From contig JALQPE010002358.1 of NCBI GenBank assembly GCA_030407315.1, positions 184,823 through 248,822 on the forward strand: a stretch of DNA of 64,000 bases, read 5' to 3'. The stretch's first letter is position 1. Every line of letters starts with the position of its first letter. The DNA comes from Asparagopsis taxiformis (lineage: Eukaryota > Rhodophyta > Florideophyceae > Bonnemaisoniales > Bonnemaisoniaceae). The translations under genes were made by a program, and so were the position numbers. Below the pieces are notes generated by a model. That model was not told where the DNA came from, did no database searches, and worked only from the letters and a program-made list of their open reading frames with translations. Positions 13,676-64,000 of the stretch are shown in pieces.

Positions 13676-13676
13676 A

Positions 13677-41099: not shown

Positions 41100-41640
41100 C
41101 GGAGGGATTTGTGGGAATCAACACGACATCACCTCTGCGTCTTACCTTACATCCACATCTCTCCGGGCTGAAAACGGACGGACGAAATAGGGTTTGTTCC
41201 GCTCCGTAGACGTTTAGAATCTTGTTAGAAAAAATTAAACGAAAGAGAATGACATCTCGCCTCTGTCGCAATATGTTCCATTTTCAATTTCTCGGGTTGC
41301 ACACCCATCAAGGCCTGGATCGAACCCTCTTCGATGGATAGGACAGATAGTGGAAGGCTTTTAAGCCTGTGACCAAGCGGCTATTGATTGGTTGGAGGAA
41401 GGAAATTACAGAGGAAATATAGCTGAGTACGGTGCTCGCGATAGCTGTTAGGTTAGAGTCAAATATGTGTTTCGATTATTTTTCGTACGGAAATGCCTTG
41501 GAAAAGACGATGCTTTGTCGTTCTCTTGGAGGGAATCCGTTGCATTGCACTCAATTCGAGAGCATCGTCATGAAGGAGAGGATTCTTTCTGCTTGTTAGA
41601 ATCGGTTTAGAGCAGATAGCTATTGCATTGCTGGCCAGCC
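41100..41640 (+). repeat. Inverted duplicate of 56385-56835
   Basis: Blocks such as GACCAAGCGGCTATTGATTG, AGGCCTGGATCGAACCCTCT and ATTCTTTCTGCTTGTTAGAA occur here and as reverse complements at 56385-56835, in consistent order. Both copies adjoin the inner end of an R repeat (R1 and R5). It is therefore part of the same mobile family. Confidence 0.7.
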
Positions 41641-41793
41641 CAGAAATTCTAGAATTTCGGGCAGAAAAAATATTGTAAAAAACCTTGATTTCAGCGGGTC
41701 GATTGTGCCGTACGGCACACCCCCATCTCAAAAACATGTTCACATGTGCATGTTTTTGAGAATAGCCCAAATTTTAACTCAAATCAGGGTGTC
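41630..41793 (+). repeat. R repeat 1
   Basis: Palindrome GTGCCGTACGGCAC at 41705-41718. Hairpin at 41727-41760 with arms CTCAAAAACATG and CATGTTTTTGAG, the loop holding CACATGTG. The edge reads CAAATCAGGGTGTCC. Directly upstream of the ParB-like gene's leader. Confidence 0.85.
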
Positions 41794-42131
41794 CCCCGGA
41801 GAAAGGGGTGCTCGCAGCCGCCCCAAAAGCCGCCTAGCTTGACAGCTGTAATTTTAACACATTACACATCAAGGACACTGCCTGTTTCACGCCATCTCGT
41901 CAGGTTTCGAGAGCCCGACTCGGGCCCGTTCCGAACGGACACTCACATCTCGATTGCCTGTCTTGCATTCCAGCGGTCACGATAGGTGTGTACCTAACAA
42001 AATTTCGGTTGTATTGTGTTATTATTTCCAGCGATTGGCGTTCACGACCATTCTTCAACGTGAAACATACCATCCACATCACTCCAATACGTCAACGTCA
42101 ACCATCTCTTTTCCTTTCCAACTCAACAACC

Positions 42132-43726
42132 ATGGCGGATACGCATTTCAGCAGTTTGTTTTCAACGGTTTGCGGCGATCAAGTGAGCGCGTCAGCGGAG
42201 TCGCGCGGACTCAAGCGCGGCGTCGATGTCAATTTGTTTGCGGACGTGGACGGTGCGGCTGTGCATATTGGGACGGCTTCGGTGAGCACTGCTGGTGGCG
42301 ATGTTGGCCTTCCGCGCACGCTGCACAACCACAAGCTGCCGGAAACCGAGGAGGCCGACTACATCGTCGTGCGCAACATTGCGACTAAGGACAAGTTCAA
42401 GGACCTCCCGTTCCCGTACATGTTTGATGGAGCCGAGGGACCGCCGGAGACGATGGGTGCAGCATACGCTGCGGCGTTTTACCCTTGGGATACTCGGATG
42501 ATGCGCCCCGCTGCGGAGGATGGCCCTAGCGACATTCGTACCCCTGCTGCAGCGTCAAACTTCAACGCAGTGACGAACCAGGCCAGCTCGGGACGGATGC
42601 CCAGTACCGGTCCAGCAGGCGAAATCACTGGTTCGGGGGGTACGAAGCATCCAGCACGCTCCGTCCCGGTTTCGGGAGGCACGAAGCCTCCTGCTCGCTC
42701 TGGAGGCACGAAGCCCCCTGCTCGCTCCAACGTCACCGAAGCTACTACGCAGGACGTACCGAGGTGGACGACGAACCGGAGGTGGCGGAAAGCATTCGTG
42801 AGCAGCAGGGGACGCAAATTACGGTGCCCAAGTTTGTGACGTCGGATTACGTCGGGCAAGGAGCGACTGTGCTGGTGAGGCAGCTAGTGGAACCGGCCGT
42901 GACCCTTCGCGATGTGAAAGAAGACCACGTGGAGGACCTGCGCAACAATATGTTGGCTGTGGGGTATGTGAGCTCTTCGCGTATCACTGTGACGGTGCTG
43001 AGGTCGCAGAACACGCATCTGTCCGCCGACACGCGTCTGTTCCAGAATGGCAAATTCCATGCCAATGCGAACGTGACCGTGATCGACGGACTGCATCGTC
43101 TCAATGCTATGCATAGCATTGCCGATGACTTCACGCGCCTCACCCGTATGCACAGAACCAAGCTGCCACAGGACGCAAACCGCTTGCGCTGGGTTACTCA
43201 GCCTCTGGATGTGTACTACCTTCGCCGCAAGGACGACAGTGATCTTCAGCCTCATGAGATCATCCACAAGAGTGCAGAGTCGAACCATACGACTAGGACG
43301 CAACTGACGGAGCGCTCCCTGGTTCGAATCTTGTCGTCCATCCAGCAGTTCATCCGTACGATTGCTGTTGCAAATAACGTGGAAAACGCTGGCGACTTGC
43401 GTGAGTCTGATGTCATCCGAACATTGTTCGAGGCGCAGTTCATGGGGATGATGAATTCAACGAACACGGCCCGGCGGTGGACGCGTTTGGCTATAGCAAC
43501 GCTGAAGCATCCTGTTCTCGACGAAGTGTTGCGTGAGCTGAACAATTCCGAGCGCCGCAACGAGATTGGGATAACGCACCTGGACCACAAGATAGTGCGC
43601 GAGTTGCTGGAAGAAAACTTTGTCTACGTCTTGCGTGGTCTTTCGGAGTACTTGAACCCTGCTCATGGTGGACGTCCGGATGGACGCTTTGACGTGAACG
43701 ACTTCTATACATACGTCCTCGCGTGA
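42132..43726 (+). CDS. ParB-like DNA-binding protein (one-base frameshift)
   Basis: The ATG at 42132 sits in ACAACCATGGCGG. The frame runs to 42839, but the second half continues in another frame to 43726. Copy 2 at 63481 has GTAACCGAGG where this copy has GTACCGAGG (about 42756), so one lost A explains the break. The whole product is about 531 residues: a unique N-terminus, a GGTKPPARS repeat (three units, about 42640-42730), then a ParB/sulfiredoxin-type domain with DHVEDLRNNMLAVGYV and VIDGLHRLNAMHSI (the GxHR-type box), and a helical C-terminal half. In bacteria such domains bind palindromic parS sites and CTP. Here it precedes the dioxygenase gene by 49 bp and follows palindrome-bearing R1. 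Eukaryotic function is unknown. Confidence 0.7.
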
Positions 43727-43775
43727 CTGCAATAGCAAATTCTCTGTACGCTGCGTATGGGCGCCCAAAGAGTAT

Positions 43776-46049
43776 ATGCGCAAGTCATTTCTGAGCACAG
43801 AGATGGCAATTGGGTCGGTTAAGCAGCCGAAGGAGTTGCAATGGCATCTCACCAATTCCATTGCAATGTATAGAGGGGACGACCGGAGCAGTGAGGTTCG
43901 AATGCGACGGAGAACCACGCGTTTACAGGATTTGGAAACGAACTTGAAAGAGTTTTTCAATCCGACATTGAAGAAGAAGACTAAGGCTCGACGCAAACGC
44001 CGCCCTTCTGCTGCCAATGTGAGACTCACTCACAAGAAGCAGCGGAATGTCGAACATGAGCCTGCTTCGCATGGCATCCGCCGCCGTTCACAGCGACTTC
44101 GCTCGACGGGGAGCACACGCCTCGAGGAAGAAGAGCCGGTTGTGGTACAACAATCCGCCGGGGAAGAAGAGCAGGCCGTTGTTGATAAACCCACCGATCA
44201 ACAACAAGCCACTGCTTCCGGTGATGAGGTTGACGAAGACTCCGCCCGTTCCCCCGATTCTGCCGTTGAGATTGTCCCCCAAGATAACCAACGTGCTGGT
44301 GCGACTCCCTCTAACCAAGAATCTGTCCATACCGTTTCGGACGAGGAAGACGAAAAGGGTGCAGACGAGGGCCAAGTCGAAAGCAAGGGGGTCCGCGAAG
44401 TGACAATTACACTCACTGTTCCGGAAGGAGTGGAAGTCGATGAAGACGGTTACATCGTTAGTGACTCTGCTTCTGAAGACGAGCTCCTGTTCGACGACCG
44501 TATGCCATCTCTTCCTGAAGATTTCGAAGGCACACTCGAAGCCGAAGGGCATCATCTGGCGCAGCGTCCTGCGGACATCATCGCGTCGGTGAGGGTTGAC
44601 TGTCTGCCCCCGATTGAGCTCAGGGTGTTACTGGAGAGTGTGGAAATCGATGAAGCGGGCAGGGAGGTGAGATATTTGAAGAAAGTGGCAATGAACCCTG
44701 TGTTCGAGGGGCTGCATATTCCGGAACAACATCGGGCTCGTCATCTTGTTTTGGAGATCGACACCATCTATCCGATGTTTTTCGCAGCGTGGAAGATGGC
44801 TGCCAAGGCGATGTGTGAGCCTACATCGACGTTTCTACCCTCGAGGCTGGACTTCGCTCAGGTTGCGCGAATGTCTACAAGCTGGAAGGATTCGTATGAG
44901 GCCGGCACTGGTATGGCGTACTTCCACAATTTCCGAACGGAAATCAACGAGCGAGGGTATACGGTGATGGAAAATTTCGCGGATGCAACCTACCTCGATA
45001 CGTCGGACAAGTTCCCATTCGACTTGGGTCCCATGGAACAAATTCCTATCCAGGAATTGTTTCGGTACTTTTTGGGAACGTGGGAGGGGGAGCAGGTGCA
45101 CAAGGACCCTGGGAACCGGCAGCTGTGGAGTCCCATTGTCAATACAGGGGACGATGAAACAGATGAGAAGAACCGGAATGAGGGGAGGGCTCGCTTCACG
45201 TCTACGCGCCACTGCCTGGTTGACTATGCCGAAAACGATGAGACGCATATCGACCGGTTCAAGTTTGTGACGCGGCGAGCCCTGCTGGATGTGTGGTTGG
45301 GAATCCTTGTCCGGCTGATAAGGCTGGAGGAGTGCGGTTTACCGGGAGAAAAACTTGTCATGCCGGCATCTGGGGGACGGTTTTTGATAACGGGAAAGGG
45401 GTGTCCTGGGCAGGTCCCACACAATGATTTCCCTGTTCCTCCTCGCGACCGCAAAGATCAACTTCCGGGTTACTTTGTTATTGCCAACGGAGATGACCCA
45501 TTCCCTATCTGGGTGTGTCCAGGGTCCCACAAGTACGTCTTTTCCAAAGCGCTGGAATTAGATATGTACGCCAAGACGATGAAGCTGAAGAAGGTAATCG
45601 TTCCGCCACGTTCAGTCTTCCTCGGTCACGGCCATGTACAACATGCCGGGGCAGGGCATATCGACAGAGTTGTGTCACACACGACAACGAGGTATCACAC
45701 GTATTTCACGAATGCGTCGTATCCGATTCCCGACAATGTTTCGTTTGGTTTCATCAGGCGGTTGGGATTCGAAGAAGAAGTAATCGCCAATGCTCCGCGC
45801 CGGTCTGCCAGGCAAAGTCAACCGGCACCTGTCAATGTTCGCCACAAGACGGTTGTTCCCATCCCGGTCAAGAAAGATCGTAGGCCGAAGACAGGGCAGC
45901 TCGGAATCATGCGGATGAAGACGACAGAACGCAAGCCAGAACGCAAGCCTATATCCTACACAATTAGTGATGTCCCGTTCATGCCTATTCTGCCGGGAGA
46001 TCCTGATTATAGTGGGGACGAAGAGGAAGAACAATTTTCCGACGGCTAG
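43776..46049 (+). CDS. 2-oxoglutarate/Fe(II) dioxygenase-like nuclear protein
   Basis: 757 residues. The N-terminal third is basic then acidic: KKKTKARRKRRP and RRRSQRLRS look like nuclear localisation signals. The C-terminal half has a double-stranded beta-helix signature: H549-x-D551 in GQVPHNDFPV, distal H623 in GHVQHAGAG, and an Arg near 641 in RYHTYF that would hold 2-oxoglutarate. These enzymes couple 2-oxoglutarate decarboxylation to substrate hydroxylation. The substrate here is unknown; a DNA base or chromatin protein is inference from context. The frame is open for 26 codons upstream of the ATG, overlapping the ParB stop, so a fused or spliced product is possible. A general phytanoyl-CoA-like hydroxylase is the alternative. 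Confidence 0.7.
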   Translation: MRKSFLSTEMAIGSVKQPKELQWHLTNSIAMYRGDDRSSEVRMRRRTTRLQDLETNLKEFFNPTLKKKTKARRKRRPSAANVRLTHKKQRNVEHEPASHGIRRRSQRLRSTGSTRLEEEEPVVVQQSAGEEEQAVVDKPTDQQQATASGDEVDEDSARSPDSAVEIVPQDNQRAGATPSNQESVHTVSDEEDEKGADEGQVESKGVREVTITLTVPEGVEVDEDGYIVSDSASEDELLFDDRMPSLPEDFEGTLEAEGHHLAQRPADIIASVRVDCLPPIELRVLLESVEIDEAGREVRYLKKVAMNPVFEGLHIPEQHRARHLVLEIDTIYPMFFAAWKMAAKAMCEPTSTFLPSRLDFAQVARMSTSWKDSYEAGTGMAYFHNFRTEINERGYTVMENFADATYLDTSDKFPFDLGPMEQIPIQELFRYFLGTWEGEQVHKDPGNRQLWSPIVNTGDDETDEKNRNEGRARFTSTRHCLVDYAENDETHIDRFKFVTRRALLDVWLGILVRLIRLEECGLPGEKLVMPASGGRFLITGKGCPGQVPHNDFPVPPRDRKDQLPGYFVIANGDDPFPIWVCPGSHKYVFSKALELDMYAKTMKLKKVIVPPRSVFLGHGHVQHAGAGHIDRVVSHTTTRYHTYFTNASYPIPDNVSFGFIRRLGFEEEVIANAPRRSARQSQPAPVNVRHKTVVPIPVKKDRRPKTGQLGIMRMKTTERKPERKPISYTISDVPFMPILPGDPDYSGDEEEEQFSDG

Positions 46050-47075
46050 ATAGCTTAACAACTACTACTTTAGCAAACAATTATCGAGAATATAATCATC
46101 TCCTTTATCACTTTCAATCTATGAACCTACTATAATGTACTTCCGTTCCATGCTTCCAAACTAGATTGTCCATTCCCTCGTAGGTTGGAGCATGATTTCC
46201 AGGACGATTCCCTCACATCTCTAGACTCGATGGTCTATGCTAGAAATAGCAGAACAATTGGGTTTGTACGTGCTTCGTCGCCTACTTGCTTCCGGTAATG
46301 GGTGGACGTGCACGATACACGATCAACCTGAAATGGACGTCCGGTGGATGTCTAGCTCGATTGCATTGCTGGCCAGCCCAGAAATTCTACAATTTCGGGC
46401 ACAAAAAAATATTGCAAAAACCATCGATTTCGGCGGTCGATTGTGCCGTACGGCACACCCCCATCTCAAAAACATGTTCACATGTGCATGTTTTTGAGAA
46501 TAGCCCAAATTTTAATTCAAATCAAGGTGTCTAGTTTGGCCACAACGGCCCCGGGAACCGGCCGCCGCCCCGAGTGGGGTTGTCACTGGCTTCTGTAAGC
46601 ACTAACTGTAAGGCTAAATGGCGCCTAACGATGGGTCGATTCCAGGCTTCAAGCCTAAGTTATGCTAGGGAGACATCTTTTTCCGTGTTTCATCATGGTC
46701 CCGCCTTACTCCCTCACGACAAACACTACTCACCCATCACGTTACTCATATTCCGTGCACTTTGTATGAGTAGTGAACCCGTCTGCTTAGTTGCTGCAAT
46801 GCGTGGATGTGGGCAGCACACGACCAACCTGAAATGGACGTCCGGTGGATGTGCAGCTCAATTACATTGCTGGGCAGCCCAGAAATTCTAAAATTTCCAA
46901 AAATCAATTTGGTGACCCAGCATCTCCTGTGCCGAAAATTCCCGCGCTCACTTCTGATATACGTCTAGACGTGTTTTGCACTTGTACGAATCAGGGAAGG
47001 CGTCATGGAAGGTTGAGACTACGCTACTTGTGTACCGCGTCGTCTGAAATAGCGAGTAGTGTTTGTTGTATAGCG
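46050..47075. other. R-repeat spacer array, left of the Plavaka-like element
   Basis: It holds the 3' flank of the dioxygenase gene, R repeat 2, a spacer (GGCCACAACGGCCCCGGGAA onwards) and the inner part of another R unit (to about 46892) that stops at unrelated sequence. No gene is recognised. Confidence 0.6.
46330..46533 (+). repeat. R repeat 2
   Basis: Palindrome at 46443-46456 and hairpin at 46465-46498, identical to R1 in both. The edge reads CAAATCAAGGTGTC. Same orientation as R1, so R1 and R2 are direct repeats around the ParB + dioxygenase pair. Confidence 0.85.
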
Positions 47076-47199
47076 TCTGTGTTTTCGGAAGTGGACGCGG
47101 ACGTCCAGTCTCTCTAGTACGGGTCCTAGTCGGCCCCGAGATTTACTAGAACAAATGAACGTCCGCGTCCGAAAAAAAATAAAAATTTTTTGGATGCGG

Positions 47200-47457
47200 A
47201 CGTCCACTTTCTCTAGTACATATGGCGGAATACTAGGGCCCGACATCCACTTTCTCTAGTACATATGGCGGAATACTAGGACCCGACATCCACTTTCTCT
47301 AGTACATATGGCGGAATACTAGGACCCGACATCCACTTTCTCTAGTACGTTTGGCGGAATACTAGGACCCGACATCCACTTTCTCTAGTACGTTTGGCGG
47401 AATACTAGGACCCGACATCCACTTTCTCTAGTACGTTCGGCGGAATACTAGGACCCG
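47200..47457. repeat. 43-bp tandem repeat, six units (copy B)
   Basis: Six contiguous units with core ACTTTCTCTAGTAC and GGCGGAATACTAGG; the partial start of a seventh follows at 47458. They are the complement of the three units at 3119-3247. Confidence 0.9.
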
Positions 47458-47587
47458 ACATCCAGTATACAATATATCAGCGAAAACCGGGAGGGAAGAA
47501 ATTACAGCGGATGGTAAATTCAGGGCCCATATCGGACCGTATTTTATTCTCTCATTTACGAAACTGCTCGTATACAATACGTCTCTC

Positions 47588-47772
47588 TAGAATAGGAAAT
47601 ACATATCTGGTCAGAATAGGAAATAAATACCCGGTTAGAATAGGAAATACGTATCCAGCCAGAATACGGAATACGTATCCAGCCAGAATACGAAATACGT
47701 ATCCAGCCAGAATACGGAATATGTATCCAGCCAGAATATGAAATACGTATCCAGCCGGAATACAAAATACCT
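47588..47772. repeat. 24-bp tandem repeat array, copy B
   Basis: Seven or so imperfect units of AATACGGAATACGTATCCAG followed by CCAG. Equivalent to 2866-3001. Confidence 0.7.
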
Positions 47773-48239
47773 GTCAGCATATCGTCGATCACCCATTCCC
47801 TCACTATCGCGTTCTCCCTACCATCCGAACGCCATGCACCACCATCCGCACATACTTCAAGAACCCTCACGACCTTGATTACAAAAATCCGCTCCTTCCC
47901 AATTCCATCCCGCTTTCCTCGACACCACCCCAGCGCATTAAATCATCAAGACATCAAACACGAACATGGTCAGCAAAATCTTACACCACTTCAAACCCAC
48001 TCTCACTTCTATCGTATGCCCCAAAATATACACATACCAGAAACACCTCACAGCTTCATTCCCCATCTTCCTACATCCCTTCTTCACTCTCCTTCAGTCC
48101 TGCCGTTCCTGCTTCACCACTCCTGCATCACATACAAAACATCAACCCCAACAGTCAGATTCAAAAGCAACGCTTACCACGACAGATATCCTAGAAACTT
48201 CCTTACTTACCTCTCATCCATCCTACACACAATACAAAC

Positions 48240-49240: not shown

Positions 49241-49823
49241 AATCTCAGTCGGTGATGAGGGCGGAGTGGAGCCTGCGGCGTCGACCGGACAGATTTCAGC
49301 GTCCGCTTAAGTCTTGCTGTGCATACTCGAAATCATCGCCGGCAGTGAGATTGAGTATGGCCCAAGCCATGGTCTCTGATTCCCCGAACAATGAGATCCG
49401 GATCGAGGACAACGAATATAAACATATAATCATATATATGAGAATCCATTTGCTTTCCTTACATGATCCGTGGCATATCCGCTATAAAGCACATTCAAAT
49501 TCCACGAAGTTCAGAAATAAAAAAGTTTATTATTACAAATGAATTAATTGAAAATTCATCTCCCAGGGCAGTCGTTCGTCCTTCCATGCACACGTTGCCA
49601 GCACGCAATGTGATGTAACAGTTGGAAATGATTGAACTCTCGGTTAAATTCCACCGTTGGGATGTCAGCTGGAGTGAGCACAAAACTACTACCCACAAAA
49701 CTACGAACGAACACGTTACATTCCAAGTCTCGAAAGCACCACAAAAATAAAAATTGGTCGCATCTGGACGGCACAGTCTCCCCTGTTCAGCTCGCAATCC
49801 TCCCTTTTGCGTCAAAACTCGAC

Positions 49824-52800
49824 ATGGAATGCAAGTATGAAGGGTGCTTCTACTACTGCGTAGATGCTTATGCGCTCGCGCTGCATGAGCGAACGTGTCG
49901 CTACCGTTTCAACCCCTCTACCCAACATTTCAACAACGCTCGTGTCCCTGCCGTCACCCATGAGCCTGCTCGAAACGGCGACCATGATTCCCCGCAACCC
50001 AGCTCCCCAGACCCAGAATCTGGTCGTGCTTCCTCCAGCGACTCACCCTGTGACGCTCCACTGCCACCAGCCTCAACACCCTCCCGCGCAGACCTCCTCG
50101 TGCAATCCCTCGCCGCCAGTCTCACAACCCTCGAGTACAAGGCCGGCGCTGGCCGCGTGAGCGAAGTCATCACCATCCTACAAGACCCCGCATTCTCCCT
50201 AGAAAAGTTCAACAGCACCGTTCGCACCGTAGAAGAATGTCGCCACGTTACCGCTTCCATGGTCGAAACACATTTCCGCACCGAAGGTTACAAGAGCCAC
50301 ATCGTTCCAGACAAAACTGGTAAGTACTCGGCACAGCTGTACCTCCGCGACCCAGTCGACATGCTCCGCAGGCAGTTAGCACTGGCTAACGACCAAAATA
50401 CTCTCTTCCACCCCTCCCCACAGACCGCCCCAGACGGCACCGCAATATTTTCTCATCCCCTACACACAGAATTCGCGAAAACGCTGCACCAGGTTACTAG
50501 ACAGCGCGTGCAGCTCTCGGAAGATCCACAGGTCGTATGGGCAGAGGAAACTGATCCCACACCTTCCTCCTTTGCCGGCCTCCTCCAAGTGTACTCCGAC
50601 AAGAGCAGCACAAGCCTCAAGAGCTCCGCAATCGTCGCATACCCCATACACGTCACACTGCTCAACTTCTCCGCCCCCCTCCGTCGCCACTGCATCCGTA
50701 CCGGCCTCACCATCGTCGGGTATCTTCCGTACATTGTTAACCCTTCGTCCAACGCCTTGTTCGGTGATGAAATGCCGACAACCTCTAGTTCTGCTAGTCG
50801 CGCTCGCAAAATTGATATTCTTCATAAAGCACTCGAAAAAGTGTTTTCGTCCCTATCCACCGCGTTCTCTTCCGGGTTCCCCTGCACAGACTCCACTGCA
50901 ACTGCCCGCCAATGCTTTCCCATCCTAGCCAATTATTGCTGCGACTTTCCAGAGGCCAAAGAGCTGTCATGCACTCGCAACAGCACTACCACCACACATC
51001 CCTGCCACCGCTGCTACATCCCCGCCACTCAACTTGAATCCAGCGCGCCACACCAGCCCCGCTCCCTCGATGATACACGCTCTGCACGCCAAGAGAGCGC
51101 TCAGGAGCATACAACTGCTCCGCTCGAAGCTCTCTCCCTCCTCGAACAACACTCTGTCCTCGAATCGACCGCTCTTTTACCCACCAACAGTCCCCTAGAC
51201 CCCTACAACATTTTCTCCTTCGAGCCTCTGCACAATCTCCACCTCGGCATCTCAAAGCTCATCAAACAGTGCATTGTGCACCGCCTCAGCTCCCCAGACC
51301 TCACCACCACCACTGCCTCCCGTTCCGGGACACCTCGCACCTTCAAGAAGGTCAAAAAATCCATCCTCGCCGGCTCAAACAGCATTCTGTCCGCTATCGA
51401 ACGCGACTACTACATCACCGGTCTTCATGTCGACTTCTCCAAGGGTGAGAAGGGCACCAATTTGAACGGCCTCTTCACGGAGGACGGCATACGCGGCATG
51501 CTCGCAGCCAAAGACTATCACCATGTCGATATGGTGTTCCCTTTCATCGCAGCATTCATTGACACATGCTGTGACGAAGTAGATACAGCCCCCCTCACTT
51601 CCATCTGCACGCAATACTCTGACCTCGTCGCATGGGTCATGAAACGCGGTCGCATCAAGCACTGGACTGCCGCCGAACTAGAAAGCCTCCAAAACTCCAT
51701 TTCCTATTTCAAACAATCAATGCTCTCCACCCTCGGCCCATTCCACACCACAGGTCTCAAAACTTTCAAGTTCCATCTTCTAGACCATCTTCCCGGTGAC
51801 TTGCAGAGATATGGCGCCCTGGAACACATCGATGCAGGCCCCTACGAACACTCGCATCTTCTGTTCAAAAAGAGTTATAGGAAAACCTCTCGAAGGCGCT
51901 CCACAGCCATGGAAGAGACTATTCGCCACATGGAATTCTCCTTGGCCACTCCAACTGGTCACACCCCATCGAACAAATTGGGAAACCCACGCATGATATC
52001 GCCCACAGACGGTGCAGTACTCGTTCGCGACGGATTCACCGTTGCACTGCACGACTTTGCCTCCCTGCTGCCGGATGCAACCCTCCTCGTTGCAGATATC
52101 GACGGACAGCCCGATCCTGCCACTCTTTTGCCTCTGCACAACTCCTCGTTCCCGTCTGGCACCATAACGCTATTCCAGCAACTCGGTGACACAGCTGCAC
52201 AAGCGTTCCTCACCCTCGCTAGACTGCGCGCCACGGCAGAAGGCCCTCCAATACATGACATGGACATTTCCGTCACCGTGGTAAAGTCCGCCTACGTCAT
52301 GGGAGGGTACGTCCCAGATGCCGACGACTTTGACCCGCACAGTGGCATGCTTCGCCCCACAAACGTGTCGAGGCACAAGCAGCAGCGCGTCTTTGCAACT
52401 TCATCATTCGGCCCCGCAAAGAGATCGCAGTACTCCTTTGTCGTCATCTCCGGAACTGCCGATGACTACAGAACCATATGGGTAGGGCGCGTCCTGGCAC
52501 TGGTACGTCTGCAGTCTCCAAACCTGTTTCAACCTGTAGAACTCGCTTTCGTGCAGTATATGACCTGCTTTGCCCCAAAAACCGCTGTGGAAAAATCACT
52601 TGGGTGCATTTGTTTAAAGTGGTCCACATGGGACCCGGACAACGGATCCGTTGACAGCAATGACACTGCATCCCACAGTGCAGGTGGTCCTTGGTTTGAC
52701 CTCATTCCTGCATCTACTATATCTGGCACCGTGCACATCGTACGAAGTAACTTTCCAGTCAAGCCATTTACGAAACAAATGCACTGGTCGGACCACCGTT

Positions 52801-52865: not shown

Positions 52866-52942
52866 ATCTAAATCGCAGCACTCTATTCATAATGTACTAC
52901 ATGATAAGCCTTCTAGTCAACGTCACATTTACTGCACTAATT

Positions 52943-55227
52943 TCAACCATCCTCCATTACGCGAAAACCGTTATCAGCAGTGGCTGGATGGCGCCGCTCC
53001 ATGCCCCCATACTGTGGGGCATTGATTTCGACATTCAGGTTTGCACTCAGGTGTCCAGCATATGGGTCAACGACGAAAAGTTCTGCGCCAATTAGTCCTT
53101 GCGCAATCACACAATCCATTACAGCACCGAGGTTTGACGTAATATGCGATTGAATCCAATCCTCGGACACTAGAACAAGTGATGAGCAGCGGTTTACATC
53201 ATCAACCACATGAACAATTCCAGACCCCTCTCCGCTTTGCCACACTTCAACAGCCTCTCTCGTCACAGTACGGCTTGCAAACACATGCCGTGACTGTGCA
53301 CTAGTCCGCTGTTCGCTCTCGACAACGTCCGTTTCTTCCCTTGCTTGCGAGCCTTGGAGACAAGACATGCAGTACACCACCATACCAACTAGTTGCTGAA
53401 AAGCTACCCCCACATATTGACTGTACCGCCTTGTAAACTCCTTCTGCCGTGCACCTCCTTTCCCCTTCGGTTCATCCAAACACTCCACAGTAGTCACTAG
53501 CCAAGCATCCAGGCGCGCCAGCGTTAGTATGCTCGTCTCTATGTCCATTACTTGTTCTGGTCGTATCGAATACCCCCTGAAGATGTCCAGCACATTCACA
53601 GCTACTCGGTTGTTAAACCATGCATCACCATTCACTTCCATTTCGAAGCTGTCAGGAACCATGCCTTTGCTGTATCGCAGCTCTGAGAACGGTGCCGTTC
53701 GCCACCTCCCCATATCCAAATCACCGTTGCTTTCCCGTTTCAAAAGCTTCTCAGAAGCTTCGCGCTTTTGATCCTCTCGCTCGTCCATCTCAGCTCGCGT
53801 CGTCAGCGTCGTGCATCTAGACATTAATTTCGTGTACCCCAGCGAACCGAACAATCTGTCCCTCGCATTACGCTTCCGTGCACTCATCACGTCGGACAGT
53901 TTCTGCGTCACCTTCACTTTCAATTCCTTGCTCCCCGCCACAGCCTCTTGACAGCACACACGCTGCTCCTCATCGGAAAACACATCACACCACGGACTTT
54001 GACGCAGTACGTGTCGCACCAAGTCATTCAGCAGATCACTCTCGTCTCTGTACGAAGGTGTATACCACTGCAGATTCTTGATGATATAGCCCGGAGGGGT
54101 AGCAATATATCCTACACCGTTTTCGCTCCAAAGTGTCCCTTCTACCGGCTCTACCTCGATGGTACGTCCAGTCCAACGTCTCTGCGTTTGTTCCGCTATA
54201 GGGTCCAGCTCCATAGTCTCGTTCTTGCACCACTTTGTCAGGTTTTCCTCAACCGCCCTAAGAACTCCAAGGTATTTCACAGGAATGGCTTTCTGTATTT
54301 TCGACTTACCGCCACCGTGATCACTGATTCTACCTGTTCTCGCAATTGCAGTAAGGCTGGCATTTTCCGCCTGCAGAGTCTTCACCTTAGCCTCCAACGC
54401 AACTATCTCCGTGGTGAGCGCCTTGTTTGCTATGTCCTGGCTAAACACTTTTTTTTCCAGCTCCGCGATCTTCTTCTTCTGCGCATTGATGCGACTCGCC
54501 ATTAAATCGATGGATTCCGGCGGATGCAACCTCTCTGCCCTCACTGTCCCCCCATCTCCCACGCTATCGGGAATATGATGTCCTCCATCGGCAATAGCCT
54601 GACGTCGCGGGGGCGTTACGCGCATATTTGGCACCAATGACAGTCTGTTGTGACGAGGCCCGCACTCCGGCTGCTCTCTCCCCTCAGTACCACCTGACCG
54701 CCGATGATAGTTGGCATCCTGTGAACGTTGCTCAGAAACAACATCCCTTGCCGCTATCCTCGGGTCCCTGACTGCATTACCTGCTGGGGCTGATGTACTC
54801 GGCATAGTTGGCGCAGTGGGGGTCACAGCCTCCAGTGTGTCGGAAGCCCCGGCTGGGACTCCGTCTGCAGCACCTCCGCATCTGCCAACCCGGGAGGAAC
54901 TACCTTTGCCATAGCACTCTGCCGCAATTCCAACATGTTTTGAGCCACTATCATGTCATCATCATGATGTTCACTGTCCCTGCGAGCACGCTTGCCTCGG
55001 TCAAGCCCCATCTCTCTCCGCGCCGTTCCTCCTTCCTCACTTTCTCGCTGCGGATCCCCAGTTCTGCGCCGGTCCGTCTTGCGACTACCGGACCGCGGTT
55101 CAATGCTGCCGGTAGGCCCAGACCGCTTCTTCGCACGGGATTGTCGGGCACTCGATACAGCAGCTGCTGACCGGGTTTTCTGGAGGCCCGGAGGCTTTGG
55201 AGCTTTCTTCGCAATACGCGGCGGCAT
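52943..55227 (-). CDS. Coiled-coil protein of unknown function, in two overlapping frames
   Basis: The first frame (55227-54823, 134 residues) starts MPPRIAKKAPKPPG and is basic. The second (to 52943; first ATG at 54805) overlaps it by a GTGA step, so one gene with an intron or a one-base shift is likely. The second part has a clear coiled coil (KKKIAELEKKVFSQD and the following heptads, about residues 110-165), then a domain I cannot identify (about 190-620) with several Trp and Cys residues. It is convergent with the transposase. Its 5' leader shares GGGGTGCTCGC and GACAGCTGTAATT with the leader of the ParB-like gene at 41800. It may be an accessory transposition protein (TnpA-like), which is inference. 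Confidence 0.5.
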
Positions 55228-56380
55228 AATGAAGCCTTCCCGGAAGCGATGGAAGGATTGAGTTGCACGAGATACAAAAAAGATTGCTGTATAGTGTCGG
55301 TAACCACAACGGTCTGCGATGAACGTTCAGGTCAAGTACCGGAGAATACGCCAACAGTCCAGATTGTATACGGTAGGCAGTCATCAACAGTATTTAATGA
55401 GGTACAATTACAGCTGTCGAGCTAGGCCGCGAGCACCCCTATGTCCGGAAGACGTCCTGATTTGAATTAAAATTTGGGCTATTCTCAAAAACATGCACAT
55501 GTGAACATGTTTTTGAGATGGGGGTGTGCCGTACGGCACAATCGACCGCCCAAATCGATGTTTTTTGCAATATTTTTTTGTGCCCGAAATTTTAGAATTT
55601 CTGGGCTGGCCAGCAATGCAATCGAGCTGGACATCCACCGGACGTCCATTTCAGGTTGGTCGTGAGAGAGCGGGGCGGGACCATGATGGAACAAGGACCA
55701 AGACCTGTCCCTGGCGTATTGAGCCTGAAATTGACCCTTCGTCAGACGCCATTTAGCCTTACAGTTGGTGCTTACAGAAGCCAGTGATGACCCGCTCGGG
55801 GCGGCGGTCGGTTCCTGGGGCCGTTGTGGCCAAATTAGACACCCTGATTTGAATTAAATTTGGGCTATTCTCAAAAACATGCACATGTGAACATGTTTTT
55901 GAGATGGGGGTGTGCCGTACGGCACAATCGACCGCCCAAATCGATGTTTTTTGCAATATTTTTTGTGCCCGAAATTTTAGAATTTCTGGGTGGCCAGCAA
56001 TGCAATCGAGCTGGACATCCACCGGACGTCCATTTCAGGTTGGTCGTGAGAGAGCGGGGCGGGACCATGATGGAACAAGGACCAAGACCTGTCCCTGGCG
56101 TATTGAGCCTGAAATTGACCCTTCGTCAGACGCCATTTTAGCCTTACAGTTGTGCTTACAGAAGCCAGTGATAGCCCCGATCGGGGCCGGTGGCCGGTGC
56201 CTGGGGCCGTTGTGGCCAAATTAGACACCCTGATTTGAATTAAAATTTGGGCTATTCTCAAAAACATGCACATGTGAACATGTTTTTGAAATGGGGGTGT
56301 GCCGTACGGCACAATCGGCCGCCCAAATCAAGGTTTTTTACAATATTTTTGCTGCCCGAAATTCTACAATTTCTGGGCTG
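55228..56380 (-). repeat. R repeats 3, 4 and 5 in a ~387-bp tandem array
   Basis: Three R copies in minus orientation. Hairpins are at 55484-55517, 55870-55903 and 56257-56290; palindromes at 55526-55539, 55912-55925 and 56299-56312. The repeat edge CTGATTTGAATT recurs at 55457, 55844 and 56230, giving periods of 387 and 386 bp. The third hairpin has one mismatch (GAA for GAG). The array lies just upstream of the coiled-coil gene, whose leader occupies 55228-55450. Confidence 0.85.
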
Positions 56381-56384
56381 GCAG

Positions 56385-56835
56385 TAATGCATTAGCTATG
56401 TGCTCTAAACCGATTCTAACAAGCAGAAAGAATCCTCTCCTCATGACGATGCTCTCGAATTGAGTGCAATGCAACGGACTCCCTCCAGGAGAACGACAAA
56501 GCATCGTCTTTTGCAAGACATTTTCGTACGAAAAATAATCGAAACACATATTGACTTTAACCTACAGCTATCGCGAGCACCGTACTCAGCTAAATTTCCT
56601 CTGTAATTTCCTTCCTCCACCAATCAATAGCCGCTTGGTCACAGGCTTAAAAGCCTTCCACTATTTGTCCTATCCATCGAAGAGGGTTCGATCCAGGCCT
56701 TGATGGGTGTGGAACCCGAGAACTTGAAAATGGAACATATTGCGACAGAGATGAGATGTCATTCTCTTTCGTTTACTTTTTCTAACAAGATTCTAAACGT
56801 CTACGCAGCGGAACGAACCCAATGTCGTCCGTCCG
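56385..56835 (-). repeat. Inverted duplicate of 41100-41640
   Basis: Adjoins the inner end of R5 just as its partner adjoins R1. It contains a tRNA-like stretch (56619-56710) with a pairable end and D-arm-like part but no acceptable anticodon or T arm. No gene is seen. Confidence 0.7.
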
Positions 56836-57215: not shown

Positions 57216-57992
57216 TAGACGTAGTTGGGCTCCTTTTCGAAGCCCATTCGTCTCTTGAATAAATTTAGCACCCAATCATATACGATTGCCGAGTTGACAC
57301 CCCGTATGTCTCGTTGGTAGAAATAGCAGGGGTTCCACCACTCAGCTGGCGGGAAGTAGTTACTGATTATATGAGATATGGCTTAGCTCCCGCCAAAACC
57401 GATAGCTCTGGGCTCAGGTTCTCCAAATGTGGTTATACGAATGTGTTCTGACAATGGTAGAAGACGAATATCTGCATCCTGCTTTGAATTAAAATTTGGG
57501 CTATTCTCAAAAACATGCACATGTGAACATGTTTTTGAGATGGGGGTGTGCCGTACGCACAATCGACCGCCGAAATCGATGTTTTTTGCAATATTTTTTC
57601 TGCCCGAAATTGTAGAATTTCTGGGCTGGCCAGCAATGCATCTGAGTCGACATCCCCACGTCCAGTGGCCGTCCGGATGTCGCTCACCTGGTAAGCGTGA
57701 GGCACCTGTGTCAACCTATGTGACTGGCGGCCTTGCAGTACAACACTCAAAGGCAGGGAATCACAATCTTTTTAAAATTTTTTCTCTACCACGTATCCGT
57801 CACAACTTATTACCTACACCGGTTACGGGTTTCAAGACCTTTCCAGTGCTGTGTACCCGTATACTCTGTTCCGTTCGATATCAACCAGTGTTCCTCCACG
57901 AAAGAGTGCAAACGTCACGAGATACGTCGTCAAATTTGACTGTCTCGCCGAGCGGTTCGCCATCCTGTACCGAATTTTCCACTCATTCCATT
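57216..57992. other. Leader region of the methyltransferase-SET gene, with R repeat 6
   Basis: R repeat 6 (minus orientation) has its hairpin at 57506-57539 and a palindrome shortened by one base at 57548-57560 (GTGCCGTACGCAC). About 340 bp separate R6 from the ATG at 57993. No other gene is seen. Confidence 0.7.
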
Positions 57993-60900
57993 ATGACGAA
58001 TAAGCGCAGGCGCAACAGCAATCCGATCGTTGACGACGCAACGTGCCAATTCTGCGCGAACCCGCTAGCCCTTGGGAGGATTCTAGTGACATGGGTACAC
58101 GTCGAAACGTAGGTCGCGCCGCCCGCGAAACTACTCTCGCTGGCAAAGACTTCCTCCGCCTCTTGCTGGATTTATTCGCCCACTCAAGTTTCGCAGACTT
58201 GACGGACAAGCCGGGAGGTTTCACATACGCGGACCTTGGCGCTTGGGTTGCGCAGGGCACGGAAGAACAATTTGTGGCGCTGCAAGGTCGACTCAGCATG
58301 TCCTTCAGCGGTCGTTCGAAGAATGCTGGAGTCGAGGCGGATGTTGCCGAAATCGTCATGGCAGAGATGAACGTTGAGCGAGCCAAGCAGATTGTTCGTC
58401 TGGCATTACCCATTGCCGAGTTTTTCAAGACAGGATGAGCGTATCGGGCAATGGTTTGAGCACTGCATCCTTTCTGGGATCGTGCCGCAGACCTTCCTTA
58501 TTGGATGTAACTGCTTCCTTCGCCACTACAGCGCCGCAGCGCGGGGAACCAAGCGCCTTCGTTCTTGCTCCACCGGAAACGTTCGAGGTATTGATGTATT
58601 TCCAAGCGTTGTCTATCATCCGAAATCACAACAAGAACCTGCCGCGTCGCCGAATAGGAGATGCGGCCGAAGAGGGGAACGAAGCCGCACGCGTCCCAGC
58701 CCATCGGAAAAGCACTAATCGAGCTTGTTACGTGGTTCAAGTTTTTTACCATGCTTGGACCGATGTGGCCTACGCCGCAAAGTTTTCCAGCTTCGAAGAG
58801 TTGATGGCGCCGTACATCATTTTCGACAGCAGTGAGCATTGGTTTGACGTGCTCGATGAAGGTCTATTCGCACCGATGGAGCAGAAGCTAGATCTCTACC
58901 ACAACAAAGCTCCCCTATCTCATCCTGATGGATATGGTGGAAAAGTAGAGACAAGAACCAGTGCGCAGCACAGTGCATTTAGGGACCTTGTGAGGAAGTT
59001 CTTCGACCGGTTGCAGTTTCTTATCGTCAACCCGGACCTGGTACACCTGGCCGGAGTCCGACCGCTGGGGGGCACTGGAAATATACTTCTCAAGCGGAAA
59101 TCCGGACAAGCTGCCAGCGTATTTTGACACCCTCGACGAAGACGTTATGGCTGTCCTCCGCCCGGCACCACAAGCCGCGGACGCAGAAAAGGTCCCCAAG
59201 CCGGTTGATGACACTCCCACTCGTCGCAACACAGGAGGAGAGGTTTGGTTCCGTCGACAAGACACACAACCAGGCTTCAACTTGGACCTGGGAGGACCAG
59301 TCTTACTGCCCAAGGGCCGTCTCTCCCCGTCACCGTCACCCCATGCGACAGAAGAGCAGGAAAGTGAAGGGCAGGCTCTCGCAAAGGACTTTCTTTCGAA
59401 AATGAGTCAGTATTGCCGGGTGTACGACGTCCCTTTCGAAGATTTGGTCAGTGCCGACGAGAGCCGAGAACACGTGCCCATCACGGGCAACGTTCAGCTC
59501 ATTCTGACTGATCCGCCCTACAATGTTCGTCGTAAGAGGAACGATTCCAACTCTTCGTACGACAGGCTAACTGCAGAAGATATGCAGGCTAGCATCGAAG
59601 TGTTTGACGAGCTGTTGCGCCCCGGTGGCCACGGCATCGTGTTTCTGCTCGGTTTTGCAGTTCTACGAATGGTTCCATTACTTGGAAACGTACAAAGGAC
59701 CGCAGTCAGAAGGCCCAACCGATACTGCTGCCAGTGATGACGGGTCGGATGAAGAAGAGGTTACGTCCATGAATTCGGACTCCGAAGCATCGCAGCACAG
59801 TGGCGAAGAAAGTGCGGATGAGGAGGAGGACGAGGAGGAGGAGGACGTCGTTCGGAATTCAGTTTTCTTCGTTGACGAGGTACCTCCTGTTGTTTGTCCG
59901 ACTACCTGGGCACCTCTATCAAATGCCGGGGCGGAAGAGGTACCAACGACGGAACATGGCAGAGGTCGCTATCCACTTCTGGAAGCGAGGTGTTCCGTTC
60001 AAGACCGGAAGCGAGATGGTGGCCTATAGGAACCACGGATACATGGACGGCACGTACCCGGCGTGGTGCAACGTCACATCAATATGCCCGCCATCGATTC
60101 GAATGAGATGGTGTGGCGACAAGGAGCACAACCGGTGCTACGGTCAGAGTTCGTGCAGAGCAGAAGAGCGTCGCTCTCATGATGGAGTTGATCAGCCAGC
60201 ATTCACAGCCTGGTGATATTGTTGTCGATCCATTCTCTGGCACTTTCGCAACGGGAAAAGCAGCTATGAGCTTGCCTGAGCACCGTGTTTTCGTCGGCAG
60301 TGACATGGACAAATTGTGTGTGGTACGATCGCTTCCAAGCTGTGTGCAGTCATGTCACGTGTAATTCTTTCAAACAACACTGACATGAGGGTCACGACAG
60401 AAGCGAAACAGAGTGCTGAGAAGTTCTTGGCGTCCCCCTCTGTCACGATGCGTACGCAGAGGGAACGCAGGATCATCGAACCCCCACCTGGCCTTCCCCT
60501 GTACCAGAGGTTCCCGAAATATATTCGGCAGTACCTCTGGCAGCTGTGCCCAGAGTCGATTGCGTCGCGCGAGCACATGGAGAAACCGTACATTATTGGC
60601 CACCTTCCCTGCGCCGCTGGTTGCAAACTGAAAACCCTCGCGTGATGCGGGCACACGATTGTGTTGCGAAAAAATTGAGCGTTCGACCATCGCTGATTAA
60701 GCATCCAAATGCAGGAAGAGGGCTCTTCGCTGAACAGACATTTAATGTTGGTGACGAAGTATGTGCATACTACGGAACTGTTGTGTACTCTGATATGAGC
60801 AAGGAGTCGATGAGGTTCGCGTACGGAGAGGGTCACATGGCGATAACGAAGGAAACATTCTTGATGTTGCTATCAAGCTGTATGCAACAGCGGAGGACGA

Positions 60901-61174
60901 CGAAAACATCGAGCATCCAATTTGGATTGTTCCGGCTCCGTTCTGTTCGGCGCAGTTCATCAACGACCCGCGTATTTGCGAGGTGAGGACACTCCGGCGG
61001 AAGACACCAGGCGGATGGCCAACGTCGAGTTTTGTCGAGAACTACAGCAGCGGTTCGACGGGGAAGAAGCTCAAGGCGAAGGACCTAGAAAATCCGAAGA
61101 TCATTGTAGTACGTGCAATCCGCGATATCCGTCCGGGGCAGGAGCTCTACGTTCATTATGGGACAGCGTTTTAG
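57993..61174 (+). pseudogene. Beta-class DNA amino-methyltransferase fused to a SET domain, frameshifted
   Basis: A succession of frames that continue one another reads as one gene of about 1050 residues. After an unrecognised N-terminal part (57993-59400) comes VQLILTDPPYNV (DPPY at 59510-59521), then LLRPGGHGIVF, a long acidic stretch (59740-59870), WCNVTSICPP-like text, and VVDPFSGTFATGKAA with FVGSDMD (60224-60310). DPPY before the FxGxG-type motif is the order of beta-class N6-adenine/N4-cytosine methylases. A SET domain follows: HPNAGRGLFAEQTF and VCAYYGTVV (60700-60790), AQFINDPR (about 60950), ANVEFCRE (about 61018) and IRPGQELYVHYGTAF (61128-61171). At least seven frame changes separate these. 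It may be a decayed copy, an assembly with errors, or a gene with short introns. Confidence 0.7.
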
Positions 61175-62842
61175 AGCATGAATTAGGGTCACGAAAGATG
61201 TTTTCATTTCGACTACAAATAAAGCTACGTTCCAGAGTTGAAGTAATATCATATAATGCAGAATGTCCAGCCACCATTAGTCCAGGGTGAAACCTATTCG
61301 CAGTACTCGCCTGTCAAAAACCAATCGTTCACACTCTAGGTGCACTTCGTCCGAGCAGTGAACCTGACTGCTTGGTTGCTGTTGCGTGCAGATGCAAAAT
61401 ACAAGACCAAGTTGAAATGGACGCCGGTGGATGTCCAGCTCAGTTTGCATTGCTGTCCAGCCCAGAAATTTCTACAATTCAGGGCAAGAAAAAATATTGC
61501 AAAAAAACATCGATTTCAGGGTCGATTGTGCCGTACGGCACACCCCCATCTCAAAAACATGTTCACATGTGCATGTTTTTGAGAATAGCCCAAATTTTAA
61601 TTCAAATCAGGGTGTCTAATTTGGCCACAACGGCCCCAGGAACCGACCGCCGCCCCGAGTGGGGTTGTCACTGGCTTCTGTAAGCACTAACTGTAAGCCA
61701 AAATGGCGTCTGACAAAGGGTCAATTTCAGGCTCAATACGCCAGGGACAGGTCTTGGTCCTTGTTCCATCATGGTCCCACCCCACTCTCTCACGACCAAC
61801 CTGAAATGCACGTCGGTGGATGTCCCAGCTCGATTGCACTGCTGGCCAGCCCGGAAATTCTAAAATTTCGGGCACAAAAATTGTAAAAAAATCAACGATT
61901 TCAGCGGGTCGTTTGTGCCGTACGGCACACCCCCATTTCAAAAACATGTTCACATGTGCATGTTTTTGAGAATAGCCCAAATTTTAATTCAAATCAGGGT
62001 GTCTAATTTGGCCACAACGGCCCCAGGAACCGGCCGCCGCCCCGAGCGGGGTCATCACTGGCTTCTGTAAGCACTAACTGTGAGGCTAAATGGCCGCCGG
62101 AAGATGGGCCGATTGCAGGCTTCAAGCCAACTTATGCTAGGGAGAAATCTTCTTTCCGTGTTTCATCATGGTCCCGCCTTACTCCCTCAACGAAACACTA
62201 CTCACCCATCACGTTTACTCATATTCGTGCACTTTATATTAGTAGTGAACCGCCTGCTTAGTTGCTGCAATGGTGGATGTAGGCAGCACACGACCAACCT
62301 GAAATGGACGTCCGGTGGATGTCCATCTCAGATGCACTGCTGGCCAGCCCAGAAATTCTAAAATTTCGGCACAAAAAATCTTGCAAAAATCAACGATTTG
62401 GGGCGTCGATTGTGCCGTACGGCACACCCCCATCTCAAAAACATGTTCACATGTGCATGTTTTTGAGAATAGCCCAATTTTAAACTCAAATCAGGGTGTT
62501 CCCCGATAAAGGGGTGCTCGCAGCCGCCCCAAAAGCCGCCTAGCTTGACAGCTGTAATTTTAACACATTACACATCAGGACACTGCCTGCTTCACGCCAC
62601 CTCGTCAGGTTTCGAGAGCCCGACTCGGGCCGTTCTGAACGGACACTCACATCTCGATTGCCTGTCTTGCATTCCAGCGGTCACGATAGGTGTGTACCTA
62701 ACAAAAGTTTCGGTTGTATTGTGTTTATTATTTCCAGCGATTGGCGTTCACGACCATTCTTCAACTTAACGTGAACATACCATCCACATCACTCGAATAC
62801 GTCAACGTCAACCATCTCTTTTCCCTTTCCAACTCAACAACC
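61175..62842 (+). repeat. R repeats 7, 8 and 9 and the leader of ParB copy 2
   Basis: Three R copies in plus orientation: palindromes at 61528-61541, 61915-61928 and 62412-62425; hairpins at 61550-61583, 61937-61970 (one mismatch) and 62434-62467. The first two are 387 bp apart. The last two are 497 bp apart because of a longer spacer also seen after R2. From 62490 the sequence matches 41780-42131, the leader of ParB copy 1. R6 and R7 thus form an inverted pair around the methyltransferase-SET gene. Confidence 0.85.
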
Positions 62843-64000
62843 ATGGCGGATACGCATTTCAGCAGTTTGTTTTTCAACGGTTTGGCGGCGATCAAGTGAG
62901 CGCGTCAGCGGAGTCCGCGCGGACTCAAGCGCGGCGTCGATGTCGACTTGTTTGCGGACGTGACGGTGCGGCTGTGCATATTGGGACGGCTTCGGTGAGC
63001 ACTGCTGGTGGCGATGTTGGCCTTCCGCGCACGCTGCACAACCAAAGCTGCCGGAAACCGACGAGGCCGACTATATCGTCGTGCGCAACATTGCGACACT
63101 AGGACAAGTTACAAGGACCTCCCGTTCCCGTACATGTTTGATGGGCGCCGAGGGGACCGCCGGAGACGATGGGTGGAGCATACGCCGCGCGTTTTACCTT
63201 GGGATAACTATGATGCGCCCCGCTGCGGAGGATGGCTTAGCGACATTCGTACCCCTGCTGCAGCGTCAAACTTCAACGCAGCGACGAACCAGGCCAGCTC
63301 GGGACGGATGCCCAGTACCGGTCCAGCAGGCGAAATCACTGGTTCGGGGGGTACGAAGCATCCAGCACGCTCCGTCCCGGTTTCGGGAGGCACGAAGCTC
63401 CCTGCTCGCTCTGCCAGAGCCTTCCAGTGGAGGCACGAAGCACCCTGCTCGCTCCAACGTCCCGAAGCTACTACGCAAGACGTAACCGAGGTGGACGACG
63501 AACCGGAGGTGGCGGAAAGCATTCGTGAGCAGCAGGGGACGCAAATTATGGTGCCCAAGTTTGTGACGTCGGATTACGTCGGAGAAGGAGCGACTGTGTT
63601 GGTGAGGCAGCTAGTGGAAACCGGCCGTGACCCTTCGCGATGTCAAAGAAGACCACGTTGAGGACCTGCGCAACAATATGTTGGCGGTGGGGTATGTGAG
63701 CTCTTCGCGTATCACTGTGACGGTGCTGGTGTCGCAGAACACGCATTTGTCCGCCGACACGCGTCTGTTCCAGAATGGCAATTCCATGCCAATGCGAACG
63801 TGACCGTGATCGACGGACTGCATCGTCTCAATGCTATGCATAGCATTGCGGAATGACTTCACGCGGCCTCACCCGTATGCACAGAACCAAGCTGCCACAG
63901 GAGGCAAAACCGCTTGCGCTTGGTTACTCAGCCTCTGGATGTGTACTACCTTCGCCGCAAGGACGACAGTGATCTCCACCTCATGAGATCATCCACAGAG
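62843..64000 (+). pseudogene. ParB-like gene, copy 2 (decayed or error-rich, cut by window edge)
   Basis: ATG at 62843, with about 95 percent similarity to 42132-43290 by eye, but many one-base gains and losses in short runs (for example GTTTTTC for GTTTTC near 62870, GACGTGACGG for GACGTGGACGG near 62957). The ParB box VIDGLHRLNAMHSI is still readable near 63810. Where copy 1 lacks an A (about 42756), copy 2 has it. The GGTKPPARS-type repeat region differs in length. The dioxygenase partner would lie beyond the window. Confidence 0.75.

Follow-up and report, generated by a model that had tools for sequence, protein, structure and literature searches.

In a 64,000-nt stretch of the genome of the red alga Asparagopsis taxiformis (hereafter the window; contig C2232, positions 184823-248822, the right edge being the contig end), four genes are parts of one mobile element: a transposase gene, a coiled-coil open reading frame (ORF), a gene in which a DNA methylase is fused to a SET domain (methylase-SET), and a large gene with ParB-like and oxygenase-like motifs (the second cargo gene). 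This element belongs to the Plavaka-type DNA transposons and is ~20-22 kb long. We show here that it is present in high copy number, has apparently moved recently, and retains open frames in its two cargo genes, which diverge from an intervening array of repeats of one family, R. Positions are those of the window unless a contig is given; the genome searched comprised 141.5 Mb in 3156 contigs.

The four genes are assigned to one element because a single copy aligns across all the units and because the left and right ends share an inverted terminal motif. This copy, B (C254:45358-66937, 21.6 kb), is contiguous across all genes and lacks only the outermost ~124 bp at its left. Its order is left end, tandem repeats, transposase (+), coiled-coil ORF (-), R (-), methylase-SET (-), four R repeats (+), second cargo gene (+), two R repeats (+), and right end; the transposase frame is 1036 aa long and the coiled-coil ORF is in two frames. 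The window holds, at ~40.9-64.0 kb, parts of two element copies, the second of which starts at 47074 and is truncated by the contig end. Positions 1-4470 of copy B match window 51196-55664 at 98.9% identity, 4256-10202 match 61617-55655 in inverted orientation at 93.2%, and 9450-12005 match 61446-63997 at 94.8%. The methylase module of the window thus points the opposite way from that in the other copies examined, and recombination between R arrays in inverted orientation would be the simplest cause.

One inverted terminal motif is shared by the right end of the unit with the second cargo gene (copies A, B and C) and the left end of the Plavaka unit (window 47074, copy A 38). In the second window copy the left terminal inverted repeat, placed by end comparison, is CGTCTGTGTTTTCGGAAGTGGACGCGGACGTCC (47074-47106, +). 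It is followed by tandem repeats (47199-47770, +) in 43-bp units (47199-47464) and 24-bp units (47589-47770), arrays that recur in other left ends. The right-hand tail of the first copy (46821-47073, +) shares 94.9% identity with that of copy A and stops where the left end of the second begins. It is of note that window 1-3378 (-) is the left end of a further Plavaka copy, with the same 43-bp and 24-bp arrays, reading leftward out of the window.

Exact-pattern counts, which here and for the R core below cover the whole genome, gave 1,152 copies of the right end and 1,186 of a 39-mer of the left end (backward controls, 0 in both cases). Three of the four copies with both ends have a 2-bp target-site duplication (TSD): GT/GT on C2475, GT/GT on C1594 and TA/TA on C1590. 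Copy A, on C2475, is inserted in the transposase gene of another copy. The window, uninterrupted near 51573, provides the empty site, which displays the GT duplication and assigns the outer CGTC/GACG to the element. The C2475 and C1590 copies are 99.93% identical across 9.9 kb, suggesting recent movement.

A sequence-only reading of this DNA had proposed a candidate mobile system in which R repeats border a ParB-like gene, a dioxygenase-like gene and a methylase-SET gene. Its mobile system stands insofar as a DNA modifier and a SET domain do travel together among R repeats, but the layout is another one, that of a Plavaka transposon with its own transposase. Three independent genes were rejected: two of them are one gene, and all lie between common transposon ends. 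The Plavaka transposase, the coiled-coil ORF, the inverted ends and the presence of two element copies in ~40.9-64.0 kb had been overlooked. Could the units be separate R-bordered modules that adjoin by chance? That the methylase module of the window is inverted between R arrays indicates that modules can flip, but the same order on many contigs, the common ends, the TSDs and the empty site refute this explanation for the sampled copies, and it is almost certainly wrong.

The linkage of the genes was followed in 20 of the 30 fetched copies of the second cargo gene, over the stretch 4.7-6.2 kb upstream. Methylase-SET was found in 15 of these, directly in 13 and in two by way of a neighbouring coiled-coil/R stretch plus a methylase-SET on the same contig; of the others, three match derivative A (a form with R, in which there is no methylase-SET at this place) and two gave no match. 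Further out, 11.2-12.2 kb upstream (n = 18), eight copies have the transposase ORF, three the adjoining left part, two the left end of derivative A, one the tail of another copy, and four nothing. Methylase-SET and the second cargo gene are divergent across the R array, 1.5-3.6 kb apart, on all 15 contigs common to both best-match lists. The entries for these contigs were picked by eye, a second copy of the ParB-type gene on C1840 went unused, and the other 27 of 42 fall outside the list. Of the 30 fetched loci, 29 have an R copy ~1 kb in front of the second cargo gene; the remaining one is truncated by the contig start.

Element ends were paired from 100 listed places per end, with 12 left-end rows (contigs beyond C204) set aside, so that 188 ends, all on contigs up to C204, entered the pairing. 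The facing pairs number 24, with 14 at 10.0-12.0 kb, one at 14.2 kb, one at 15.6 kb, six at 20.0-22.5 kb, one at 29.1 kb and one at 40.2 kb. The pair C88:1468-22241 has methylase-SET and the second cargo gene between exact ends, and two pairs on C192 and one on C164 contain the transposase. Judged from length alone, the 10.0-12.0 kb pairs cannot fit all four genes. Between the ends of derivative A neither a methylase-SET nor a full transposase frame of >=250 aa was found, and the short 10-12 kb forms are likely moved in trans. Inside four short pairs (C11, C12, C14 and C49) listed R copies face each other with their starts 2.89 kb apart; copy A has a similar spacer of 2.8 kb (5508-8279), with no match in the window or in copy B and no stop-to-stop ORF of >138 aa.

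It had been suggested beforehand that R repeats found widely without the genes, or the genes found in host loci without R, would break the link between the two. Forms of the first kind do exist (derivative A, and the 14 of 24 pairs that are too short), but they look like non-autonomous derivatives, and the link is therefore not broken. The short forms also bear on the possibility that the cargo genes are captured passengers with no role for the element, multiplied simply by lying between its ends. This would account for the short pairs and for the higher ratios of nonsynonymous to synonymous substitution (dN/dS) of the window copies, 0.43 and 0.69. It sits badly with the values of <0.4 between intact copies, with the constant divergent layout (15 of 15) and with the 16 of 25 database relatives in the alignment that have SET next to the methylase, and we consider it very unlikely.

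The transposase ORF (49632-52865, +) is open for 1077 aa and matches Pfam PF18759 above the cut-off (E 2.6e-24); C(2)C (CHRC) and H(3)H (HLLDH) strings were spotted by eye. The transposase domain, together with the terminal inverted repeats and a target duplication of 2-3 bp, places the element in Plavaka (EnSpm/CMCT). Scoring the best 43 of 3336 candidate places in the genome, which yields a lower bound, gave nine copies with no stop within the aligned stretch. The dN/dS of the transposase between the window and copy B is 0.28, on only 21 differences. The coiled-coil ORF (52943-54826, -; 627 aa) has no assigned function; an ORF at 54823-55326 (-) adjoins it and may be its front part.

The fusion of a DNA methylase to a SET domain, claimed from the sequence alone, was borne out in an intact homologue. 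The window gene (57993-61174, +; N6_N4 type, DPPY) is in several broken frames, but the homologue at L045:4691-7939 (-) is open for 1083 aa and exceeds the Pfam cut-offs both for N6_N4_Mtase PF01555 (57.2 bits, E 3.1e-15) and for SET PF00856 (29.6 bits against a cut-off of 22.4, E 1e-6). The gene is open for 1082-1084 aa in all 42 copies scored (the best 42 of 4144 candidates; a lower bound). Its relatives in the PDB are bacterial methylases (the DpnA-named 5hfj, E 4e-8, and CcrM, E 0.002), and PDB chains of SET proteins such as KMT5A were not significant (E 0.27 or worse).

Database relatives of methylase-SET at E <=0.001 number 26: one at 99% identity, on an 11-kb contig, 24 at 25-36%, and one at 48% across a tenth of the query's length. 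In an alignment of our protein with 25 of these (A1; P0027 left out), PF01555 is matched by all 26 sequences and SET by 17, ours included, and the DPPY motif is nearly invariant. The motif suggests adenine as the methylation target, although domain type alone does not settle the choice between N6-methyladenine (6mA) and N4-methylcytosine (4mC) (PMC8885841). A database of genome contigs gave at least 205 relatives, among 590 listed matches, and the best 80 kept, all titled bacteria, matched in the methylase core only; a viral-contig database gave 91 pattern matches and no relatives. One database relative, P0023, is named 'MAG: DNA methyltransferase, partial [Bacteroidota bacterium]', and the bin may contain eukaryotic DNA.

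The two ORFs first read as separate ParB and dioxygenase genes (42764-43726 and 43776-46049) both exist, but they are pieces, along with 41988-42839, of one gene (42132-46049, +) that is frameshifted in the window copy. A single open frame of >=1300 aa runs through the ParB-like part in 53 of 125 scored copies, the window copy being counted (the best 125 of 1585 candidates; a lower bound). Frames in copies A-D are 1364-1430 aa long, or 1318 aa from MADTHFSS in copy B. A further copy of the gene starts at 62843 (62843-64000, +) and is truncated by the contig end. Blocks picked out by eye in the protein are VIDGLHRLNAM, which is ParB-like, and HND...PGSH...H...R / HxD...H...R, which is like 2-oxoglutarate oxygenases. 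The motifs were compared with the signatures of these families, and ParB and 2-oxoglutarate oxygenase are putative labels, the identities being unproven. Between intact copies dN/dS is 0.25-0.37, on 9 to 45 differences.

Searches with the second protein had little yield. The fused protein has no Pfam match, Tet_JBP included, so that the fungal TET/JBP precedent invoked earlier does not extend to membership, and a place in the TET/JBP family was rejected. With PF12851 the genome gave no match, but neither did the control, so that this search is uninformative; with PF05063 the control was also silent and the result carries no weight. A viral-contig database had no match to the protein. Used separately as protein queries, one window ORF drew nothing and the other a single 212-aa protein (15% of the query); these searches were weak, the ParB query being too short for relatives of ~1,300 aa and the other having drawn its words from the first 500 residues.

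The R family, as reported at the outset, is real. Nine matches of >=100 nt, each 169-216 nt long and between them in both orientations, lie in the window, its perfect palindrome GTGCCGTACGGCAC occurs there eight times, and the exact 56-nt core has 6,025 copies in the genome (backward control, 0). One R repeat precedes the first copy of the second cargo gene (41617-41793, +), and another (46318-46532) has a partial R behind it (together 46318-46897, +). Three lie at 55450-55664, 55837-56048 and 56223-56391 (-), one at 57480-57664 (-), and three between the cargo genes (61402-61617, 61791-62004 and 62289-62499, +). The 82 matches in partly overlapping fetched DNA were reduced to 12 diverged copies (<95% identity). 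Among these the R block with the 14-nt palindrome GTGCCGTACGGCAC and a 34-nt hairpin has mean identities of 1.00 and 0.99, against 0.93 elsewhere. A ParB-like protein that reads the palindrome would fit, as a conjecture.

What might the two cargo proteins do for the element? We put at about even the chance that they write and remove methyl marks on its R-rich control region, tuning or escaping host silencing. The methylase, to judge from DPPY, would make 6mA at or near the element. The SET part would methylate histones at the same place, tying DNA marking and histone marking together physically. The second protein would bind the palindromic R core and remove or oxidise the mark, and the R array might be the shared two-way promoter of both cargo genes. 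A stronger version is rather doubtful: a complete loop within the transposon, with one writer of 6mA and histone methylation and one R-docking eraser both expressed from the R array, and, given a host in which no cytosine methylase is detectable and a genome with several repeated methylase families, DNA methylation in this seaweed run largely by transposons. Were the proposal true, a single selfish element would couple DNA and histone methylation in one polypeptide, with a putative eraser alongside, in a genome without a detectable C5 methylase. It makes testable who methylates DNA in red algae, and who benefits.

Several results weigh against this proposal. The first set concerns the second protein, whose two proposed identities found no backing beyond motifs read by eye. 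The best matches of the ParB-like ORF in Pfam, PHROGs and NCBIfam have E 0.04 or worse and are to unrelated or unnamed families, and a ParB_N PF02195 search of the genome found one place only, outside this gene family. For a nuclear 2-oxoglutarate/Fe(II) dioxygenase there is neither a profile match (Pfam, PHROGs, NCBIfam) nor PDB support. Single-sequence AlphaFold models of the window ORFs had predicted local distance difference test (pLDDT) scores of 33 (ParB-like) and 32 (oxygenase-like), unusable for fold. Both cargo genes are broken in the window, and against copy B the broken copy has dN/dS of 0.43 in the ParB-like and 0.69 in the oxygenase-like ORF. Others concern the element and its setting. 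A stop falls within the aligned stretch in 34 of the 43 scored transposase copies, yet open frames of 1037-1081 aa are seen. The fourth end pair, on C1833, is flanked by AA/AT and has no matching TSD. As many as 23 of 156 R windows of 14 nt, and 31 of 136 of 34 nt, are as conserved as the palindrome and hairpin. That C5 cytosine methylase PF00145 has no match in the genome, while the same search matches 10 of 14 control genomes, speaks for the proposal, but this six-frame search ignored introns. Lastly, self-marking of chromatin by the element, likely as we consider it, is a prediction from its genes. (The sole ParB_N match, L189 on C1526, scores 38.9 bits, and its contig may be a bacterial contaminant.)

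An alternative is that methylase-SET and the second protein serve transposition itself, methylation of the ends or of R timing or licensing excision and the second protein acting as a DNA-binding accessory like TnpA. CACTA/EnSpm elements require a second, repeat-binding protein, as in TnpA of Spm, and the R arrays adjoin the genes, which stay open and in constant layout. That said, the termini and left-end tandem repeats, where transposition proteins would be expected to act, are not R, and the SET domain has no obvious part in strand transfer; this role is possible, if somewhat improbable. The element might instead silence itself, methylase-SET marking DNA and histones for repression and so holding copy number at a tolerable level, by analogy with the part proposed for bdelloid N4CMT, with SETDB1, in host silencing. 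In rotifers a captured bacterial-type amino-methylase is indeed tied to H3K9 methylation (PMC8885841). The rotifer enzyme, however, is a host gene, whereas the present one spreads with an element and has an open frame in each of the 42 copies scored. We regard self-silencing as unlikely. The reading that we prefer remains the writing and removal of marks on the R-rich control region.

Methylase-bearing repeats of this genome seem not to be confined to the element. Among the PF01555 matches (the best 150 of 2605 candidates scored; a lower bound) there are at least five groups by bits and frame: ~65.6 bits/1186 aa, the largest; 64.2/943; 73/1106; 76/701-999, at few places; and ours, ~59/1080. 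The genome thus seems to host a radiation of methylase-bearing repeats, these groups including a second methylase-SET protein, L186, which is 25% identical to ours over 455 columns and above both Pfam cut-offs. At least four further N6_N4 methylase groups were seen, with few to dozens of scored places each, L186, L187 and L188 being three fetched examples. The L188 methylase has a ParB-like VVDGEHR block. BLASTP of the second protein against L188 found nothing significant, the VIDGLHR/VVDGEHR piece having E 2.4. Another red alga, C. merolae, is said to lack DNA methylation (PMC13062707).

Giant EnSpm elements with multiple accessory genes have been reported in red algae (Petroll et al. 2025, Bostrychia moritziana genome; via PMC12477816), and the name EnSpm-Plavaka is in use (PMC12636532). 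Large EnSpm-related transposons with extra genes in a red alga, these may be of the same kind as the present element, and the set of methylase-SET and second cargo gene may already have been described by Petroll et al. In the parts available to us, the literature on Plavaka, on transposon-borne SET and methylase genes and on red-algal 6mA held no methylase-SET gene or four-gene set; the terms 'red alga' and 'rhodophyt' are not in the text of a survey of 6mA across eukaryotes (PMC12695648). Already in print are accessory genes in giant EnSpm elements of red algae, as are algal transposons that carry ParB-methylase genes.

A parallel in logic is Sola1-1_Ec32 of Ectocarpus, a 21.5-kb element with a 1104-aa ParB + N4C/N6A-methylase protein (PMC12477816). 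It too is a giant algal transposon with a bacterial-type amino-methylase as accessory gene, and a proposed logic of self-modification. It differs in its transposase superfamily and in having ParB fused to the methylase, whereas here SET is the fusion partner of the methylase and a separate protein has the ParB-like motif; L188, with its VVDGEHR block, resembles the Ectocarpus protein more than the present methylase-SET does. Fungal TET/JBP transposons likewise combine a Plavaka transposase with a putative DNA-oxidising enzyme, and PlavakaA has 2-bp TSDs (PMC12730594). PlavakaA termini, however, are TGT..ACA against CGTCTGT..ACAGACG here, and the TET-positive elements are PlavakaB (PMC12730594). 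No TET/JBP profile is matched in our element, and methylase-SET is not mentioned in the available part of that paper. The element was not placed in PlavakaA, since TGT..ACA sits 4 nt inside the ends and, at the C2475 site, the outer CGTC/GACG belongs to the element.

DNA transposons with SET histone methylases are known from the oomycete Phytophthora (HarbingerS and MuDR families, cited in PMC12730594), but these are of other superfamilies, and no DNA-methylase fusion is mentioned in the part of the source available. Bdelloid N4CMT, another eukaryotic protein, also joins a bacterial-type amino-methylase to a chromatin domain and is linked to histone methylation; it is a host gene with a chromodomain and SPPY (4mC), where ours is transposon-borne, SET-fused and has DPPY (PMC8885841). 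Retrotransposons of dinoflagellates and charophytes carry DNA methylases in high number, but these are C5 cytosine enzymes (PMC5890265).

An element copy starts ~7 kb from three vanadium bromoperoxidase (VBPO) genes, in a seaweed grown as a methane-cutting feed. Window 18205-33805 (-) has vanadium haloperoxidase-type ORFs at 18205-19965, 22945-24867 and 32033-33805, one matched via the PDB and the other two being its repeats, with an ORF of NADPH-oxidase (NOX)/ferric-reductase type (26663-29104) between them and a 343-aa ORF (25115-26146) with a weak SKA2 match below the cut-off. The cluster resembles the bromoform (mbb) locus described in Asparagopsis taxiformis, which has three VBPO genes and one NOX gene (PMC12115072). 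According to a figure legend there, the mbb contig has genes labelled 'site-specific' and 'adenine-specific DNA methyltransferase', and we infer that these are genes of the present element. Elsewhere in the window, 3895-13976 (-) is a long terminal repeat (LTR) retrotransposon with gag- and pol-type ORFs (11674-13599 and 6782-11674, by eye); its end pieces of 300 nt, at 3895 and 13677, show 100% identity, and the insertion is therefore probably recent. An Rfam tRNA match at 31536-31641 (-; 47.8 bits), missed by ARAGORN with the bacterial code, spans 106 nt against a model of 71 positions, and the tRNA gene may therefore contain an intron.

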